Shown here: one piece after another, positions 3,676 through 45,126 of the stretch
How positions within the stretch are numbered: position 1 is the stretch's first letter
Layout: each line of letters opens with the position of its first letter
DNA from: Albula goreensis
Taxonomy: Eukaryota > Chordata > Actinopteri > Albuliformes > Albulidae
Length of the DNA stretch: 64,000 nucleotides
NCBI GenBank assembly: GCA_022829145.1
Contig: CM040753.1
Span: 9,836,384-9,900,383 of the forward strand
Reading direction: 5' to 3'
Made by a program: the position numbers and the translations under genes
Notes under the pieces: model-generated
Database searches by the model: none
Seen by the model: only the letters and a program-made list of their open reading frames with translations
Told to the model about the DNA's origin: nothing

Positions 3676-5641
3676 ATACTTTCATGTATTGTGAATTTCA
3701 TTAGATAACTATTATTATTTAGATTTATTAATTCTTTCACAAACATGTCTCTCAGTGAAAAAGTTAATTGATATGATAATTTTGACATTGGGTGACATAT
3801 TATCTTTAATCGCCTTTGCTGTGCCTATGGTGCATACATATATTTCCAGTGGGATAATGGAGCTGTCCTTCAGCTACAACCACAGGAGCTTGCTAAAAAA
3901 ATGAGAGAAGAAGGCAGAAAACAGACAGCCTTCCTTTCACCCTTTGGGCATTAAATGGTTGCCTATGTGCTCATAAAACTATCCCAATTAGGCTTGTGGC
4001 ATAACGATATGTGTGATGATAGTGCCCTTATTTTCTCTTATTAACAGGTAGAGATGGCAATAACGTAGCATTAAAGGGTGAGTCAGAGACAGCCTTTTGT
4101 TCTCTGAATAAAGACATGATGCTGGAATGCTGGTTAATGGCTGCCCTCTGGCCTTCTCAGCCTGGACCTGCAATTTAAGACCATTCCAGAACAATCCCCT
4201 ATCCGTGACATTACACACCGTGTCATTTCCCCCGACATTCTGACTGAGAAACACAAAGGCATTTCAAGGAAATGTCAGAGGTGTTTTGTTTGAATGTTTA
4301 TCATTTTTGGAGACAAGGCTTGAAGTGTCATATTTAATTCAGATGCACAAAATATGTTTTGTTTTCAGCGGTTGAACAAGTCACAATATGTCAGAATAAG
4401 ACAAAAATCTAACCTTGTGCAATAATTAGCAAAACTACAGATTTTTTTGAGAAAACTGTCAAGTACATATAATTCTAGGAATAAAAATCATTGAAGGAAA
4501 TGTATACTGTTGGACTAAATCCTCTAAAATATATATTGAATAAAACACTGTACACTCTTGTCATATTTACATTTTAGACAGGAAAATATATTTTCATAAT
4601 TTATTTTTCATAATGAATATAATAATCCATTCATATATTTAAAGTCAGGAAGCATTGCCATTTGAATGCAATCCTAGTTAAACATAATACTCTTCAAACA
4701 ATTTTGTTTTGATTTATTAACGTGAAATGCTTATTTCACTGCTAATTTCAGACATGCTATTTTAGAAGATTTTTGCTATATCTGTGTAAACTGCTTGAAG
4801 TAATTCATGACATTTTAGAGATGTCATTTAAGACATTTTAAACACAGTTACAATTTCTTGACACAAGATACAATACTTGCAAGAAAACATGTTATCTTGT
4901 GCAGTGGAGACTGTTGTCTTTGGAAGTGCTTCCATAGCTGGCTAGCTAGAAGAAAGGGATGATCAAAACCATTTTTGAGCACCACAAGATTCAGATTCAT
5001 TTATGTTACAGCAGTCTAGCAATGTGCAATAAAAGCAAATAAACTGCAATATTTTGATGTAATTTTCTGACATTTTTTATTTGAAAATCAGAGGAACGTT
5101 CCTGATATCATGGCAGGATATGCTGCTTTACTCTATTTGCAGATTCATTCTTTATCATATACCCATGCAATCTATTAGCAGTGTAAACTGGTGAATTATT
5201 TCACAGATAATCCACAATTAACAAATGGGTTACAGTCCCAAGAAACCTTTTTCAAAAACACATCTATAGAAAAAGCCATAGTGTAGCATTGTAGAGTAGG
5301 GATATAAACCAAGCTCTTATAGTCCTAAATGCACCCAACAGTGTACCCCCCATACCACACTGTTGCAGTAACACCCCCCTTAAGAAGACAAGAGAATTCC
5401 ACACATTGCAGGAACCTCTTCAAATAAGTGCATGTAATGTAATGAACGACCCAAACTGGCTTATAGGCTGCAAGGCCTATTCCACCCTGCCACCGATGTA
5501 GCATGGAAGAGTGAGCGCTAAGTTGAGCATGAACCAAGGTCCTACTGCATTACAAGCAAGTGCCCTTCTCTTCACATTCGGAAAAACCCAGGCTATTGAA
5601 TCAGGCAGATGGAGCACCCACAGACTGCTCTGCTCCAAAGA

Positions 5642-6230
5642 GGTATACATTCTGTGAAAGCACTGCTATAACAGGTATACATTCTGTGAAAGCACTGCTA
5701 TAACAGGTATAGATTCTGTGAAAGCACTGCTATAACAGGTATAGATTCTGTGAAAGCACTGCTATAACAGGTATAGATTCTGTGAAAGCACTGCTATAAC
5801 AGGTATACATTCTGTGAAAGCACTGCTATAACAGGTATACATTCTGTGAAAGCACTGCTATAACAGGTATACATTCTGTGAAGGCACTGCTATAACAGGT
5901 ATACATTCTGTGAAAGCACTGCTATAACAGGTATAGATTCTGTGAAAGCACTGCTATAACAGGTATAGATTCTGTGAAAGCACTGCTATAACAGGTATAC
6001 ATTCTGTGAAGGCACTGCTATAACAGGTATACATTCTGTGAAAGCACTGCTATAACAGGTATACATTCTGTGAAAGCACTGCTATAACAGGTATACATTC
6101 TGTGAAAGCACTGCTATAACAGGTATACATTCTGTGAAAGCACTGCTATAACAGGTATACATTCTGTGAAAGCACTGCTATAACAGGTATACATTCTGTG
6201 AAAGCATGGCTAAAACAGATATACATTCTG
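5642..6230 (+). repeat. 32-bp minisatellite, 18 copies plus a partial
   Basis: Eighteen head-to-tail copies of a 32-bp unit begin GGTATACATTCTGTGAAAGC and end ACTGCTATAACA, with start points every 32 bp from 5642 to 6186. A 13-bp partial copy follows at 6218. Copies are nearly identical. Two variant positions exist: GGTATAG replaces GGTATAC in copies 3, 4, 5, 10 and 11, and GAAGG replaces GAAAG in copies 8 and 12. Copy 18 is degenerate (GCATGGCTAAAACA). Because 32 is not a multiple of 3 the array cannot keep one reading frame, so it is not coding. Low divergence suggests recent expansion and probable length polymorphism. Confidence 0.97.
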
Positions 6231-18208: not shown

Positions 18209-18459
18209 TCAGAGCATTGTGGGCCAGCAGGCCGCCCTCAGCAGGGCTGGGGCCAGGGGCAGGAGCAGCAGCAGCGGGGCTGGTGGCAGGGAAAGGGCAG
18301 CCTGGCCAGAGTCAGCGTCCCCGCAGCCTCCGGCCTCGCTCTCGCATCGGGGCTTCTCACACAGCAGTCCGGTGAAAGCCGTGGGGCACTGGCAGCGCAG
18401 GTTGTTGTGGCACACTCCGCCGTTCTGACAGCGCATCAGCTCGTTGTCGCACACTCGAG
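18209..18459 (-). CDS. ntng1: Netrin-G1 terminal coding exon: EGF-like domain and GPI signal
   Basis: Last coding exon, 251 nt ending in TGA. It starts after a strong acceptor (pyrimidine tract ending CCCCCGCAG) in phase 1. With a T from the previous exon it begins S-R-V-C-D-N-E-L. The six EGF cysteines are all present, in VCDNELMRC, GGVCHNNLRCQC and GLLCE, followed by RCESEAGGC with the extra Cys pair typical of netrin-G1. The C-terminus is a short polar spacer (GDADSGQ), then a Leu/Ala/Pro-rich hydrophobic tail that runs to the stop, as in a GPI-attachment signal removed in the ER. VCDNEL, CQNGG and the SGQ spacer favour netrin-G1 over netrin-G2, which has VCDDDQ and a different tail. The role is to anchor this synaptic adhesion protein to the outer membrane leaflet. 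The plus-strand frame of 183 codons across this exon is a shadow. Confidence 0.96.
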
Positions 18460-24958: not shown

Positions 24959-25093
24959 ATTTGCAGCCATTGTCCCACAAATATCCCGGAAGACACTCAT
25001 GGCACTTAGCCCCTGTTGTTCCCTTCTTACATTTACAAAATCCTGTGCCATTACAGCGATCACTGTCTGAGCCAAAGGGATTACAATTACAGT
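24959..25093 (-). CDS. ntng1: Netrin-G1 cassette exon: laminin-EGF repeat 3
   Basis: A 135-nt exon, 45 codons, phase 1 at both ends. The acceptor is TCTACAG and the donor GTAAGT. The protein reads [20 protein letters not shown], then [14 protein letters not shown], ending DNGCK. All eight cysteines of a laminin-type EGF are present in order. The motif NGT is an N-glycosylation sequon. It matches the human NTNG1 third laminin-EGF (recalled as ECYCNPLGS...GYGC-type) in length and cysteine spacing. It is one of the exons skipped in short mammalian isoforms. Being a multiple of three and symmetric, it can be left out without a frameshift. Joined to the terminal exon it gives GCK-S-R-V-C-D-N. Confidence 0.95.
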
Positions 25094-27663: not shown

Positions 27664-27831
27664 CTACGCAAACATTCTCATCGTCCAGCTCTGCTGAGAC
27701 GTTTCTGTAGTAGCCCAGCTTGCACAACTGGCAGTGCTGCCCTCTAGTGTTGTGCTTACAGCTGACGCAAATGACCGTGTTTAGCAGCTCGATGTAGCTG
27801 CACCGGTTGGAGTGGCCGAAGCATTCGCAGT
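27664..27831 (-). CDS. ntng1: Netrin-G1 cassette exon: laminin-EGF repeat 2
   Basis: A 168-nt exon, 56 codons, phase 1 at both ends. The acceptor is TTTGCAAG and the donor GTCAGT (with +3 C, weaker than consensus). The protein begins [20 protein letters not shown], continues [13 protein letters not shown], and ends LDDENVCV. Its near-identity to human NTNG1 as I recall it ([19 protein letters not shown]) makes the family certain. Eight laminin-EGF cysteines are present, and NVS is a sequon. In mammals this exon is alternatively used, and its inclusion lengthens the stalk between the NGL-1-binding head and the membrane anchor. If it follows the microexon directly, the junction codon is AAC (Asn), as in the human protein. 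Confidence 0.97.
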
Positions 27832-30081: not shown

Positions 30082-30141
30082 CTCTCTTGCTGTTTGCAAC
30101 TTGAACAGAAGGAACAGTTGACAAAGCAACTTGTGGAGCAA
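30082..30141 (-). CDS. ntng1: Netrin-G1 cassette exon: 'unknown' domain part 2 (60 nt)
   Basis: A 60-nt exon, 20 codons, phase 1 at both ends. The acceptor is CTCATCCAG and the donor GTAGGA. With a G from the previous exon it reads VAPQVALSTVPSVQVANSKR. This agrees residue for residue over most of its length with the NTNG1 alternative segment I recall as VAPKLALSTVSSVQVANHKR. It has no cysteine and no recognised fold, and in mammals it is part of the alternatively spliced 'unknown' segment between laminin-EGF 1 and the later repeats. Joined to the terminal exon it gives KR-A-R-V-C. The call rests on protein similarity plus perfect phase and splice sites. It is too short for ordinary ORF calling. 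Confidence 0.88.
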
Positions 30142-31938
30142 CTGGATGAGTTAAAACAAAACAAAAAATATATAGTGTCCATTAAAATGAGAAACCGAGG
30201 CCTTGCTGACTGTGTTTAAAAACAGAATCAGACTGCTTTCCTGTGAATAACTACCTCTCATTTGTAACGGGACAGCTCCCCCTTCTCCCTCCCCCGCTCC
30301 AAAAATGCATTAAAACCACATAAGCCTTGAACTATCAACAATTGTTCTTATTTTTGACATTTAAAATTTTTCAAGTGCTTCTATTTTTCTTTATTATATA
30401 TATATATGGACTATAAAGTTGGTCTGTGAACTTGCAAAATTATCTTTGTGAAGACAAAACTAGCACAATTAATTACAAAACAAAATAACAGACAAAATTC
30501 TGAATGAATCCAAGTCAGTTACATGAAAGCCTGAAAAACATCAAATGACAACTGTTAACATAAATTAAGATAAGAAGGTTGTTTGATATGGAGTTATTTG
30601 TCGTTGTCAGAATAGCCCAGAAGTTCACTCCATAATTAACACAGTTGAAAACAGCACAGGCAATCTGTTTAGTATTGGAATGACAGTAAACACTGCTCAA
30701 CTGTGATTTCAGAAACTAACCTTCAAAAACTAACTTTCATACTTTGTGCAAAACAGCAGCTGCATTGTTTGGGCAGTATTAGAAATGGGAAACTTTTCAC
30801 AGTTTTTAAAACTATAATCTTATCCCTGATACAGCAATCTTGTGAATGACACTGATCCATAAAATGTACTCAGTGATGGTTGATGAGGACACTGATCAGA
30901 AGGGTTCTTTGGACTGAACTTGAGTCTGGGTCCTCTTAAATATGGCCCCTCTGTTGACTGGCTCTTAGTGCAGCCCTCCACTCCAGTGTTTTATTGTCAG
31001 TTTCTGGTCCATCCCTACATTTCATCAGCAAGCCTCTCACATCTGAGCAAGTAATACCCTGTACCATGAGGGACAGCCACGTGAAGGCTGAGTGCTAATG
31101 ACCGCCTGTCCTGTCATCTGCTGAGACCCGGCCTTGGTGGAAAAGACTCTCAAAAACCAAGACTGCCTTTGGGACTCTCTCACAGAAAGCTCCCTTTGAG
31201 TCGGTATACAGTAGCAAACAATGGAGATTCAGATAAATTCGCACCAAACTCCAGTATCCACTACCAGCTATTCTCTTAACCCTAAAGAAAAAAAAGGGAT
31301 AATTATATCCACACCACCTGCCTGCTCTCACGATACTCCTAACAGGGAGGACACGGATCCCCCTGGCCGGAAAGATGGGAAAATGGAGCAGCGGATTCAA
31401 GATGTTTGCATGGCACATCTGCATGATGGATTAACTTGAGATTGCCTGAAATCAATCTACACAAAACCTCCGTGGCAACCCGTCTTTTCTCCTGCCGGTG
31501 AGGACTGCATCGAGAATCCCTAGAAGCGTGATGCCTAATTAAAATGGAAGGGATAATCAAAGGCTATTGAAATTGGTGGAAATGTTCCTCTAAACATTGC
31601 CTGTTTCTGTGGATGCAGTCCACATTGGATTGTGAAGAAATCACATTCACAGTGTATTGTGTGTCTGTGAAATGCAAAAGGAATATTAAATTCTCTTTGT
31701 GGGTGCAGAAACTGTCCTGCATGGGGAAAATAGTGTTGTCCTCTGGTAACAATCTTTCAAAATGTATGCAGAAAATAAATACTGGTTTCAACTAAAACAC
31801 ATAATCTAGCGAACATAAAATCTCAAACCATTATTATTTTTTTTAAATCCTGACTTTGTGTTGCATGTCTTTATATACTAATACCTGTCATTATATCTGA
31901 AGAAAAAAAAAACTTAATTTTAGTTTGAGATATCCTAC
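30142..31938 (-). other. ntng1 intron between the two 'unknown' domain exons
   Basis: A 1.8-kb intron bounded by GTAGGA and CCAG. It is AT-rich, with no repeat family recognised and no additional exon seen. Confidence 0.8.
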
Positions 31939-31983
31939 CTTGATTTCGGTTAGCGACCCCTAGGGACGAAACATTCGGCCGTA
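31939..31983 (-). CDS. ntng1: Netrin-G1 cassette exon: 'unknown' domain part 1 (45 nt)
   Basis: A 45-nt exon, 15 codons, phase 1 at both ends. The acceptor is a pyrimidine-rich tract ending GCATGCAG and the donor is GTAGGA. With an A from the microexon it reads IRPNVSSLGVANRNQ and then V across the next junction. The mammalian counterpart, as I recall it, ends IWPNISSLEVSNPKQV, so most positions align, including the conserved sequon N-V/I-S. The human exon is longer at its 5' end. In this window the in-frame sequence just upstream reads T-P-D-F-S-R, resembling human T-P-P-K-F-N-R, but there is no AG acceptor at the matching place, so the 5' boundary is the least certain part. It has no cysteines. 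Its function is unknown, presumably a spacer in longer isoforms. Confidence 0.8.
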
Positions 31984-32667
31984 CTGCATGCAATCGGGAG
32001 AAATCAGGAGTTATTGAAAGCACTGACTACATCAGCTCGTTGGGGTCTATGATAAACTAGTGGACACAGACAGCTAGACATTCACCTATAGCTCGGTTTG
32101 CTCATATTTGTCTTGCATAACAACATGTGATGCCAAGCCTGACGAAGACAAGCAGTTGATGCATCCCAAGACCAGTAACACTATAAAACATTGTATGTAA
32201 TTGTGCAGTTTCATGGATTTCCTCGCACTGATGGTGATGATGAACCAAACAATAGCCTGAAATTTTCCAGTCTGAGGTGCACTGAGTTGCATCTATATAA
32301 AAACTGAGAGGTGGTATACAGTATAATCTTGTCTCAATTTAATGATACAAAGCAGTTTGAATAGAATTACATTTCTGGGACAGTGATAATTATTTAATAT
32401 AATAATGTGAGTGTCCAGAAAGAACTTCAATGATTTATGTAATAACCTCATAATTACATACAATTTTTTATTTCCTTTGTGGGAAATAGCAGTGCTAAAT
32501 AACTGGTGATGGAGTCTCTCAATGGAGTCTTCTCAATGTCATGTCAAGCAGAGGCAGCAGTGAGGGATTATAAAAACAGGGTAAAGGGCTGTAATCTGCC
32601 TGTCTCCAATCCCCTTCTATCACAACCCTTAAAACAACCCTCTCTTTGTGTCTCTGAGTGTGCTGCT

Positions 32668-35565: not shown

Positions 35566-35592
35566 TAACTGGACCAACATTATTGGGAATAC
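35566..35592 (-). CDS. ntng1: Netrin-G1 27-nt microexon closing laminin-EGF 1
   Basis: A 27-nt exon in phase 1 with a strong acceptor (TTTGTCTTTTCCAG) and a perfect donor (GTAAGT). Together with the T from the laminin-EGF 1 exon it reads CIPNNVGPV. Its last base starts the next codon: A plus AC gives Asn before C-E-C-F of laminin-EGF 2. The human counterpart, as I recall it, is CIPSISSIG followed by N-C-E-C-F, the same length and junction residue. The first residue supplies the eighth cysteine of laminin-EGF 1. Skipping it would put Tyr, Ile or Ser there and leave that domain with seven, so it is probably constitutive. It lies 9.4 kb from the preceding exon and 3.6 kb from the next. Confidence 0.87.
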
Positions 35593-37265: not shown

Positions 37266-40200
37266 GCAACCGATCTCTGGATTTTTTCACCTCTCTTGAG
37301 AGAGGAGTGAAGATATGCTGGCATCTGTGCAATGTTTTCATCAAACAGGGCATTCAGACGACAGTGCTCGGGGCCTTGCGGATTTCGCAATAATTCTTCC
37401 CCGTCTCTGTCGCTCTCGTGCACAATCATCAGAGATGCTAGAGCCCCCTACCACGCATAGTCAATACTCCCTCCCCACCTCCTCCACTCCTTCCCCCAGC
37501 AGCTAATCTCTCCTTCTGATCCCGGCTTGACAGGGATGGTTGGGAACCAAATTTATGACCTTTGGGAAAGAAAAGGAGTGGGCCACTGCCAGACTGATGC
37601 TTCTCGGCGCGCTCTGTTGGGTGTGAAGATGCAGGCAAGAAGAAGAAACAAAAGAAGCACATCAAATCCACAAAAATGCTATTCCAGACCCTTCCTGGCT
37701 CAAATGAAAGCCCACTGAGATTAATGCAGCCATACAGAGGGAACTGAGCTTCATAAAAGAACCTATTTCAAAGGTGGAGTTACCTTGGAAAGATTTCTAA
37801 ATTAAATATCATAATGACCCATAATAATGGCTTCTTTTCTTCCAAGAGGGGATATTGGAAAGTTTAACTTGCAAAATGAGTGAGCTGGAAATCCTGTTCC
37901 TTAGACCAACAGTCCTCTTAAAATCAAGAGGCTACAATCACACAGCAAAAAGTCAAACATGAGGGAAAAGGGAAAACACAGTCTGTTACAGCTAGTCACA
38001 CCATAGCCCTCAGGGATGCCAATATGAATGTAGCGAAGCCATGTATCCCCAACAAGAGCAAATGGTACATCGGTTTGGTTCAGTTTGATTCTCTGTCTTT
38101 CCAAATGGCAAACTACAGCAAGCTCTTCAGATGGGGGTGGATATTCACAAACTCTAACAACTTTGATGTTTCGGAGTGGGGGCAGCAGGCTTCAGCTGAT
38201 TCTCCCCAGAACTGAACAGATATTGAACTCGTCCATCTATTTTTGGAACTGTCACTTCCCCTCATGTGCCAGCTTCACCGTGAGGAGCGACAGATCCGCA
38301 GAGCTGAAACACAGATACCTGTTTGAAGACCATCCGAGAGAATAAAACTTCAAAAGAAGAGAACATGTAAGATCTTTGCTTTGACACCCCTTAAATTAAA
38401 AAGCATGTGTTAAAAATTGAGAAACAAGACAACAACATTTTAAAATTGTTTTGCAGACCAGACAGATAAATATAAGTCTGTAATATTAGATGAAAATGTT
38501 TGTATGGGGTAAAGTCCTCCTTTAATTGTTCCCAACTTATGCAATATAACACCATTGATAACAGTTCTGTTGTTAACCCTTTGTTAGCTGGCCCATCCAT
38601 GTGGGCAATAATAATGTCTGCACTCACATACCATGTTTTTTCTCTATTTTATAATATAAGTTTGACACGTCACTTCATTTGATGTTTGAGGTAAGATATA
38701 ACATACAGAAATACACTAATGTGCAAGATGTACATATTTCTTGACGGTATAATATATATGAACATATTTAATGCTATTTATTTTCTGTAGCATTGTGATG
38801 CATTATAGAAAGGTTTTACATATAAAAATCTATTTTTTATAAATATGGAAAATAACAAGTTGGAGGAACTAAACCTTTTGTAATGAAAAATGACACATGC
38901 CTTTTTGGTTGAGGACATTGTGCCAAGACAATTAAGTTCATCCATACTGGCCTTTACTCTGTCCTACAAAATCGTATGAGTTATCTAACCATTTTTCCAA
39001 TTGCTGATCTCACCAAAATAGGTTTGTGAAGAAAAAAAGGTTGACCCTAGCCTTAATCCTAGCCTAAAAATAGACTATGGGGGACATGACTGAGGTCTTT
39101 AAAGAGTTGCTAGGGATTCAAATAATACATTGCAGGGGCTATTTATGGTTGAGTTCAACCAGCATGACTTGGGAAAACTAGTGGGAGTTATTTAAAGGTA
39201 AATTTGGCACTGCTTCTAGCTAGTATTCTTCATTAGTTATTAATACAGAAAACAGGCTACTAGAACGCCTTTGAAGACCAGGCTTGAGGCTGAATGTGTT
39301 CTCGTCTGTAGATGCTGTGATGACCCTGACAGGCTGTAAGGCTTAAACCATACATGGATATAACAGTTGCATCTTCATTTCTCAGCCCCCAAAGTCAAAG
39401 ACTCTCATGACCGGTAATGGTGTACCTTGGGAAGTCTGTGTGAATGCATTCACGTGTTGGCAATAATGTTTACTACATGATTGTGTGTGAGAAAGGATGA
39501 AAGAATGGCTTGAATACAGTTACTGGGGTCAGAGCCCTGTGCATCAGAATGAGAAAACCGCTAGATTTATGCATTCACTGCAAACCATTAATTTTTTCAA
39601 TAACTGTACTTATTTATGACCATTGGTAAAGGATTATCAAATTATGTAATTGTGTAAAACAGTGGAACATTCATTATCATTGCATGTGTCCACTGAAATA
39701 GTTATGTTGTTAAATTTTAAGTGCAAATGTTTCAGATTGAGGAAACTGTATTTTACAGAGCTTTAAATCATTTCAAGTATGCATTTTTAAAAATTTTTGT
39801 AGGTTTTTCTTTTTTTACTGGCCAACATTTTGATGCAGTGCTTATTTCTATATTTATTTCTTAATGGACTACATGCAGTCAGGGCCAGCTGTTGAAGATC
39901 ATATGCCACTTCATTAGATTAATTTTCAATCACCATCATTTTCAGTCCTCTTCACCTGCCAGTTATCTCCATTACACTCCATAATAGAAATCTAATTGCA
40001 CAGAATAATGCAGGAACACATTACGCTGTTTGTGTTTATCATGCACTTCATTGATTTTTATTATCCTTGGGCTCAAACCCCCTCCAAGTTCACTGTTTCA
40101 GTCGGCCGGAATATCAGCAGATGCATAGAAAAGGATGTGAGATGCAGACTGAGCATCCATGTGTATACAGTCCGTGCACCACACACAAGCAAACCATGAC

Positions 40201-43600: not shown

Positions 43601-44279
43601 TTTCACTTCCTCATCAATTATTGGATATTGTCTCCGCATTGGTGATTTATTGCACCCATAATCACATCAGATGACTTGATGTGTTATACAAAAATGCATT
43701 AAATCCTAATTAAATTTGTACTTTTGACTAATTTGTCTCTATATGGGTGCCATATGTTTAATATCCTCAAAGAAAATGGAAGAGCTATGTAGACATAGCT
43801 GATCTGTTTTGCAATGCAAAAAGAATGTTAGGAATATTTTCCCATCTAAGACATGCATTCATTTTTCCCCTCAAAGGTGGAATAACATCAATGGTTTTTG
43901 TTTTTTTCTTTTTTTGCGGTATTATTGCATTATATACTTCTGTCAGAACAAAGTCTAATAACAGCCTGCGATGGGGCCAGGCTTCATCACCTGGGTGCAG
44001 ATGTGACTAAATGTGGGGGTTTTAATAACGTGCTGTCAATCTGAGGCCCATAAACTCCATGCTACCGCCACGCACAGACATTCATAAATCTGAGCTACCG
44101 GGCAGAAAATCCCAACAAGCCACGATCCCCCACCGCTGCATTATCAACAAATCAAAAACAAATAAAAATACGGTCCATAATTAAACTAAAAGAAAAAAAT
44201 AATAATAATCATCAAAATAACTGATAAATTAGAATGTATGGCCTCATGCCACCAATTTCTTTGTGATAATTAAATATAA

Positions 44280-44953: not shown

Positions 44954-45126
44954 AGATATTTGCTGTTCCCTTCGGGATTGGAAGATAGGAGCCCGCACTC
45001 CACGCTCGGCCCTGGTAATTTTTCTTACATCTCCCGCAGTCTGGGCCCGTGGTGTTATGCTCACACTCACAAGTCAGTTTCTCTTTGTCAAAGACACAGC
45101 TGTTGGCGTGAAGGTTGCACTTGCAC
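44954..45126 (-). CDS. ntng1: Netrin-G1 exon: laminin-EGF repeat 1
   Basis: A 173-nt exon. The acceptor is CTTTCCTTGACAG and the donor GTGAGT. One G completes a codon begun upstream (Arg in the human protein), then 57 codons, then a T in phase 1. The protein reads [10 protein letters not shown], then [20 protein letters not shown], then YQGRAW and [12 protein letters not shown]. It is nearly identical to human NTNG1, which I recall as CKCNLHATVCVYDNSKLTC onwards. Seven of the eight laminin-EGF cysteines are here; the eighth comes from the 27-nt microexon. NTT is a sequon. In the protein it directly follows the laminin N-terminal domain that binds NGL-1 (LRRC4C). The upstream exons are not in the window. 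Confidence 0.97.

Follow-up and report, generated by a model that had tools for sequence, protein, structure and literature searches.

Linker exons between the laminin-EGF repeats of a fish netrin-G1 gene and of its second copy

Netrin-G1 is encoded by a nerve-cell adhesion gene, and its laminin-N head binds NGL. In the fish Albula goreensis, two small exons lie between the exons coding for the first laminin-EGF repeat (LE1) and the second (LE2) of such a gene, which raises the questions whether they correspond to an optional segment of mammalian netrin-G1, whether they form a single unit and what the encoded linker might do. We analysed a stretch of 64 kb, called the window below (C13:9836384-9900383), taken from a 932-Mb genome in 208 contigs.

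According to passages of a 2019 review (PMC6408995), human netrin-G1 isoforms vary in their stalk region by inclusion of exons 5-9, and isoform G1m equals G1a with exons 6 and 7 added. The review gives insert sizes of 42 and 22 aa, and Nakashiba 2000 and Meerabux 2005 are cited through it as sources for mammalian exons 6/7, G1m and others. Netrin-G1 isoform levels are reported to be altered in bipolar disorder (excerpt of PMC7843923). The initial annotation put the two fish exons forward as a hidden and poorly understood segment; that segment is already in print as human exons 6 and 7 (passages of PMC6408995). The observation is therefore a known feature in another species, with the separability of the two linker exons as the newer point. 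No role was found assigned to the netrin-G1 linker in the literature passages on isoforms, no description of exons 6/7 in fish appeared among the titles and abstract openings listed from the open-access literature, and a literature search with four assumed mammalian peptide strings gave 0 papers.

Gene identity and exon anatomy

The window gene is fish netrin-G1 (ntng1), of which the 3' half is located on the minus strand of the window. The laminin-N open stretch lies 3.7 kb outside the window, with its start at 68377 on the window scale, and is followed by the laminin-EGF repeats. When laminin-N, LE1, exon 5 and the last exon were joined, the product scored 616.5 bits against the netrin-G1 chain 3zyj_B, versus 417.4 and 417.1 bits against netrin-G2 chains. 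The gene was identified on the basis of this difference and of its neighbour PRMT6, a gene in one open frame that precedes ntng1 on this strand (C13, window-scale 125238 downward), which matches the mouse order of Prmt6 upstream of Ntng1 (part of PMC4000137). Searched against the PDB, the best 10 of the 30 matches listed for this frame are all PRMT6 (439.8 bits), followed by PRMT8 (256.8 bits). An Rfam search of the window gave 0 matches. A 32-bp unit is repeated in tandem 18.4 times (97% matches) at window 5641-6230, downstream of the netrin-G1 coding end.

The exons are collected in Table 1, in which exons are numbered 5-7 after the human gene as read from the review PMC6408995, the correspondence being assumed.

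Table 1. Coding exons of the window netrin-G1 gene, in window positions
Feature	Position	Strand	Description
LE1 exon (first laminin-EGF repeat)	44954..45126	-	173 nt; 3' end ATC T; eighth Cys finished by the next exon
Exon 5	35566..35592	-	27 nt; (C)IPNNVGPV; AG/GT borders
Exon 6 (linker)	31939..31983	-	45 nt; IRPNVSSLGVANRNQ; sequon NVS; AG/GT borders
Exon 7 (linker)	30082..30141	-	60 nt; VAPQVALSTVPSVQVANSKR; AG/GT borders
LE2 exon	27664..27831	-	168 nt; Pfam laminin/attractin EGF
LE3 exon	24959..25093	-	135 nt; intact in the window copy
Last coding exon	18209..18459	-	EGF-like repeat and hydrophobic C-terminal tail; stop 18211-18209

Both linker exons are present where the initial annotation had placed them, between the LE1 and LE2 exons, with phase 1-1. 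All five internal exons (5, 6, 7, LE2 and LE3) consist of complete codons and have phase 1 on either side, so that 32/32 include/skip combinations run in frame to the same C-terminus. The isoleucine of the spliced exon 6 product is formed by the last base of the 27-nt exon and TA. The linker encoded by exons 6 and 7 contains no cysteine and had no match in Pfam at E up to 1 or in the PDB at E up to 10. The hydrophobic tail of the last exon, judged by eye, resembles a GPI-anchor signal, the feature expected of netrin-G1 in place of an NTR domain.

Exon 5 stands apart in that it completes the preceding repeat. The LE1 exon ends with T and exon 5 starts with GT, which contributes the last two bases of the LE1 Cys8 codon; in the 16 combinations without exon 5, this cysteine becomes S, L, F or Y. 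Exon 5 would for this reason be needed in practically every working transcript, and it is probably an obligatory part of the linker-exon unit. The two-exon unit described initially has to be extended by this third, 27-nt exon. If the numbering matches, exon 5 is among the variable exons of the human gene (passages of PMC6408995); it completes a disulphide-forming cysteine of LE1 and therefore constrains which isoforms can fold.

The solved netrin-G1 chain 3zyj_B, which we take to be mammalian, reads ...ANACIPSISSIGTNVCDN..., that is, LE1, then a segment of exon 5 length, then the last exon. It shares with the window gene the laminin-N domain, LE1, the exon-5 segment of equal length and the last EGF repeat, whereas exons 6, 7, LE2 and LE3 are absent before that last repeat. 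Identity amounts to 48/58 residues in LE1 (83%, Cys8 from exon 5 counted) and to 30/40 in the EGF part of the last exon (75%). The exon-5 segment of the chain, CIPSISSIGT, aligns ungapped and shares the junction residue T with the fish product, but only 2/8 of its residues are identical to those of window exon 5.

The mammalian query segment for exons 6 and 7 is an assumed sequence. We assume that NPPKFNR (7 residues) precedes IWPNISS in it, giving 22 residues at the exon 6 position, that the exon 7 counterpart has 20 residues (22 + 20 = 42 in total), and that the segment contains the sequon NIS and the string LSTV.SVQVAN. Across the six frames of the window, the top match of the exon 7 query was exon 7 itself (16/20 identical, score 73), a score reached by 0/500 shuffled queries. 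Exon 6 was likewise the top six-frame match (8/15 unspliced, score 40; 3/500 shuffles); with the assumed 22-residue query it scored 38 (8/500 shuffles), and after splicing 9/15 residues agree with the assumed letters. The likeness of both exons to the optional mammalian segment, as initially claimed, is thus beyond chance. Fish and mammalian exons belong to the same gene and are located alike, after EGF repeat 1 and before EGF repeat 2, and both the sequon (NVS in the window, NIS in the second ntng1 copy described below and in the assumed mammalian segment) and LSTV.SVQVAN are kept. The further claim that length is conserved is valid for exon 7, with 20 residues in fish and in the assumed mammalian segment. 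It is doubtful for exon 6 (15 residues versus an assumed 22), because of the additional NPPKFNR and because the published insert sizes do not fit 15 residues.

Exon 5 was not found by six-frame similarity in the window, as 125/500 shuffles equalled the best match, which was located elsewhere; it was identified by its position and phase, by 3zyj_B and by the second ntng1 copy. Ranked by splice-site score among 2006 candidates (open, phase 1-1, 24-90 nt, window minus strand; a rough score with assumed frequency tables), exons 5, 6 and 7 take places 6, 13 and 16, and splice scores alone are therefore insufficient to single them out.

Two candidates for additional coding sequence were discarded. 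An in-frame 5' extension of exon 6 (window 31984-32010, TPDFSRLHA) weakly resembles the assumed mammalian PKFNR, a likeness reached by 50/2000 shuffles. It was rejected as coding because the acceptors available further 5' have scores of -3.43, -0.64 and -0.69 versus 6.18 for the chosen one, and because the second copy, which has the same 45-nt border, contains a stop codon in this frame immediately before it. The interval from exon 5 to exon 6 was also scanned for a small exon of its own encoding NPPKFNR; this was rejected, the best of 65 candidates scoring 3 versus 42 for a perfect match.

Divergence of two netrin-G1 copies

A netrin-G search of the genome yielded 14 matches, namely netrin-G1-like exons in the window and on contig C24, with four others on C1 and a further three spread over C8 and C22. 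The second ntng1 copy, at C24:3195996-3239427, has a laminin-N domain that scores 397.8 bits against netrin-G1 versus 304.9 bits against netrin-G2 and that is 96% identical to the window copy over 215 residues. The gene looks alive, given this identity and a last exon that is open to its stop. The two copies presumably date back to the genome duplication of teleosts.

LE1, exon 5 and exon 6 have the same lengths and phases in both copies. Exon 5 of the C24 copy encodes CIPNNLGPV and exon 6 encodes IRPNISSLGVANRNQ, both with AG/GT borders; exon 6 shares 14/15 residues with the window copy and its sequon is kept. The two versions of exon 6 differ at 7/45 bases, of which 6 are silent and 1 causes a conservative V->I change inside the sequon. 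This corresponds to a pN/pS of 0.07, and so few residue changes occurred in 12/5000 neutral simulations. Exon 5 gave 0.08 (100/5000), and LE1, the last EGF part and LE2 gave 0.04, 0.16 and 0.20 (each 0/5000). This amounts to a selection test like the one proposed in the initial annotation, made on one pair of gene copies, and by it exon 6 has evolved under purifying selection.

When the DNA between LE1 and LE2 was compared between the copies, a test independent of the assumed mammalian letters, five conserved blocks were revealed, and the reversed control gave 0. The strongest block holds exon 6 (E 7e-21) and the next exon 5 (E 5e-10), the latter barely ahead of two intron blocks (2e-9).

Exon 7 behaves differently. 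It was not found in 30 kb of the C24 copy (best score 25; mean 23.8 and maximum 33 for 200 shuffles), and with permissive settings the 4523-base interval between exon 6 and LE2 of that copy returned noise only. In addition, the C24 LE3 exon contains four in-frame stops, and C24 LE2, which has its GT at the same length as in the window copy, has a weaker donor (3.68 versus 6.83). The two exons thus do not form one indivisible segment, since the C24 copy retains exon 6 while exon 7 is not recognisable.

We consider it on balance probable that, after duplication, exon loss divided the repertoire of splice isoforms between the two copies. The window copy would have retained exons 5, 6, 7, LE2 and LE3, whereas the C24 copy would have lost exon 7 and LE3, with strong purifying selection acting on its exon 6. 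If this holds, selection acts on exon 6 and exon 7 as separate modules rather than on one unknown domain, and their roles can be told apart in this gene pair as in a natural experiment. It would be a clean test, as the window copy can code both linker exons and the C24 copy only exon 6.

A ntng2-like gene at C1:40276324-40297908 has LE1, LE2, LE3 and the last exon in common with the window gene; its LE1 scores 91.5 bits against netrin-G2 versus 74.7 bits against netrin-G1. Exons 5, 6 and 7 had no match above shuffled queries there, and a differently lettered small exon is possible. A pattern search for LE2 gave 2 matches in viral contigs and 34 in genome contigs, none confirmed as a relative.

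Candidate roles of the linker

Taken together, exons 6 and 7 of ntng1 probably encode an optional spacer, putatively N-glycosylated, that separates LE1 from the EGF repeat after it. Exons 5, 6 and 7 would code for the junction between these repeats, with exons 6 and 7 acting as optional cassettes that add 15 and 20 cysteine-free residues, the former bringing in the sequon. In the long forms, the laminin-N head would be held further from, and looser over, the GPI-anchored EGF stalk, and a glycan on the exon 6 sequon may keep the linker extended. Such control of reach and flexibility is suggested by the location of the linker, with the NGL-binding head on one side and the GPI anchor on the other. 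The N-X-S/T sequon is conserved in both fish copies and in the assumed mammalian segment, consistent with a glycosylated linker. Optional use is seen elsewhere, as 3zyj_B lacks exons 6/7 and human G1m contains both (passages of PMC6408995). Their alternative use is published for mammals and predicted for this fish.

The level of conservation of exon 7 points to more than spacing. Judged against assumed mammalian letters, exon 7 is identical at 80% of its residues, similar to LE1 and the last EGF part, and exon 6 at 9/15; a sequence serving as a spacer alone should diverge, in the way exon 5 has done relative to 3zyj_B. Exon 5 is, however, constrained between the two fish copies, although it is a linker by position. 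The main rival to the spacer reading, because exon 7 is so highly conserved, is that the insert, and chiefly exon 7, is a splice-switched short binding motif for a non-NGL or cis partner. With the assumed mammalian exon 7, its conservation is indistinguishable from that of the folded LE1 (Fisher p 0.75) and exceeds that of exon 5 (p 0.011). We regard a binding motif as rather unlikely, as the linker has no relative in Pfam or the PDB, no partner is named in the passages of the literature consulted, the mammalian letters behind this comparison are assumed, and exon 7 was found neither in the C24 ntng1, where its absence makes it dispensable, nor in the C1 ntng2-like gene.

A role of the insert in stalk cleavage, by which a protease site is added or hidden and isoforms differ in shedding, is improbable: the linker is a cysteine-free and presumably flexible stretch between disulphide-rich repeats, but shedding is not mentioned in the passages on netrin-G1 consulted. 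That the exons are relics or chance matches left unspliced in this fish is very improbable: although the region does decay, as the C24 losses of exon 7 and LE3 indicate, exon 6 is under purifying selection, lies in the strongest conserved block of the LE1-LE2 interval and has AG/GT borders in both copies, and exon 7 is open, in phase and has fair to good borders.

According to passages of PMC6408995 and PMC5943504, NTNG1 is regulated by FUS. A hippocampus study describes higher inclusion of Ntng1 'exon 6', assumed to correspond to exon 6 as numbered here, in enriched than in non-enriched control females (part of PMC9314447), which would be a further case of optional use. We scanned 300 nt around exons 5, 6 and 7 for splicing motifs. 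TGCATG occurred twice (1.21 expected), once in the exon 6 acceptor, where the C24 copy reads TTCATG. GCATG occurred 2 times (2.60 expected), TCATCAT 1 time (0.21), YCAYNNYCAY 2 times (1.03) and CTCTCT 2 times (0.78), and GGTGGT and TTCTCT had 0 matches in the same scan; none of these motifs is claimed to be regulatory. The three conserved blocks outside exons lie between LE1 and exon 6 at window 44020-44089, 39909-40001 and 32442-32488 (74-83% identity between the copies) and are possible control elements of splicing or transcription.
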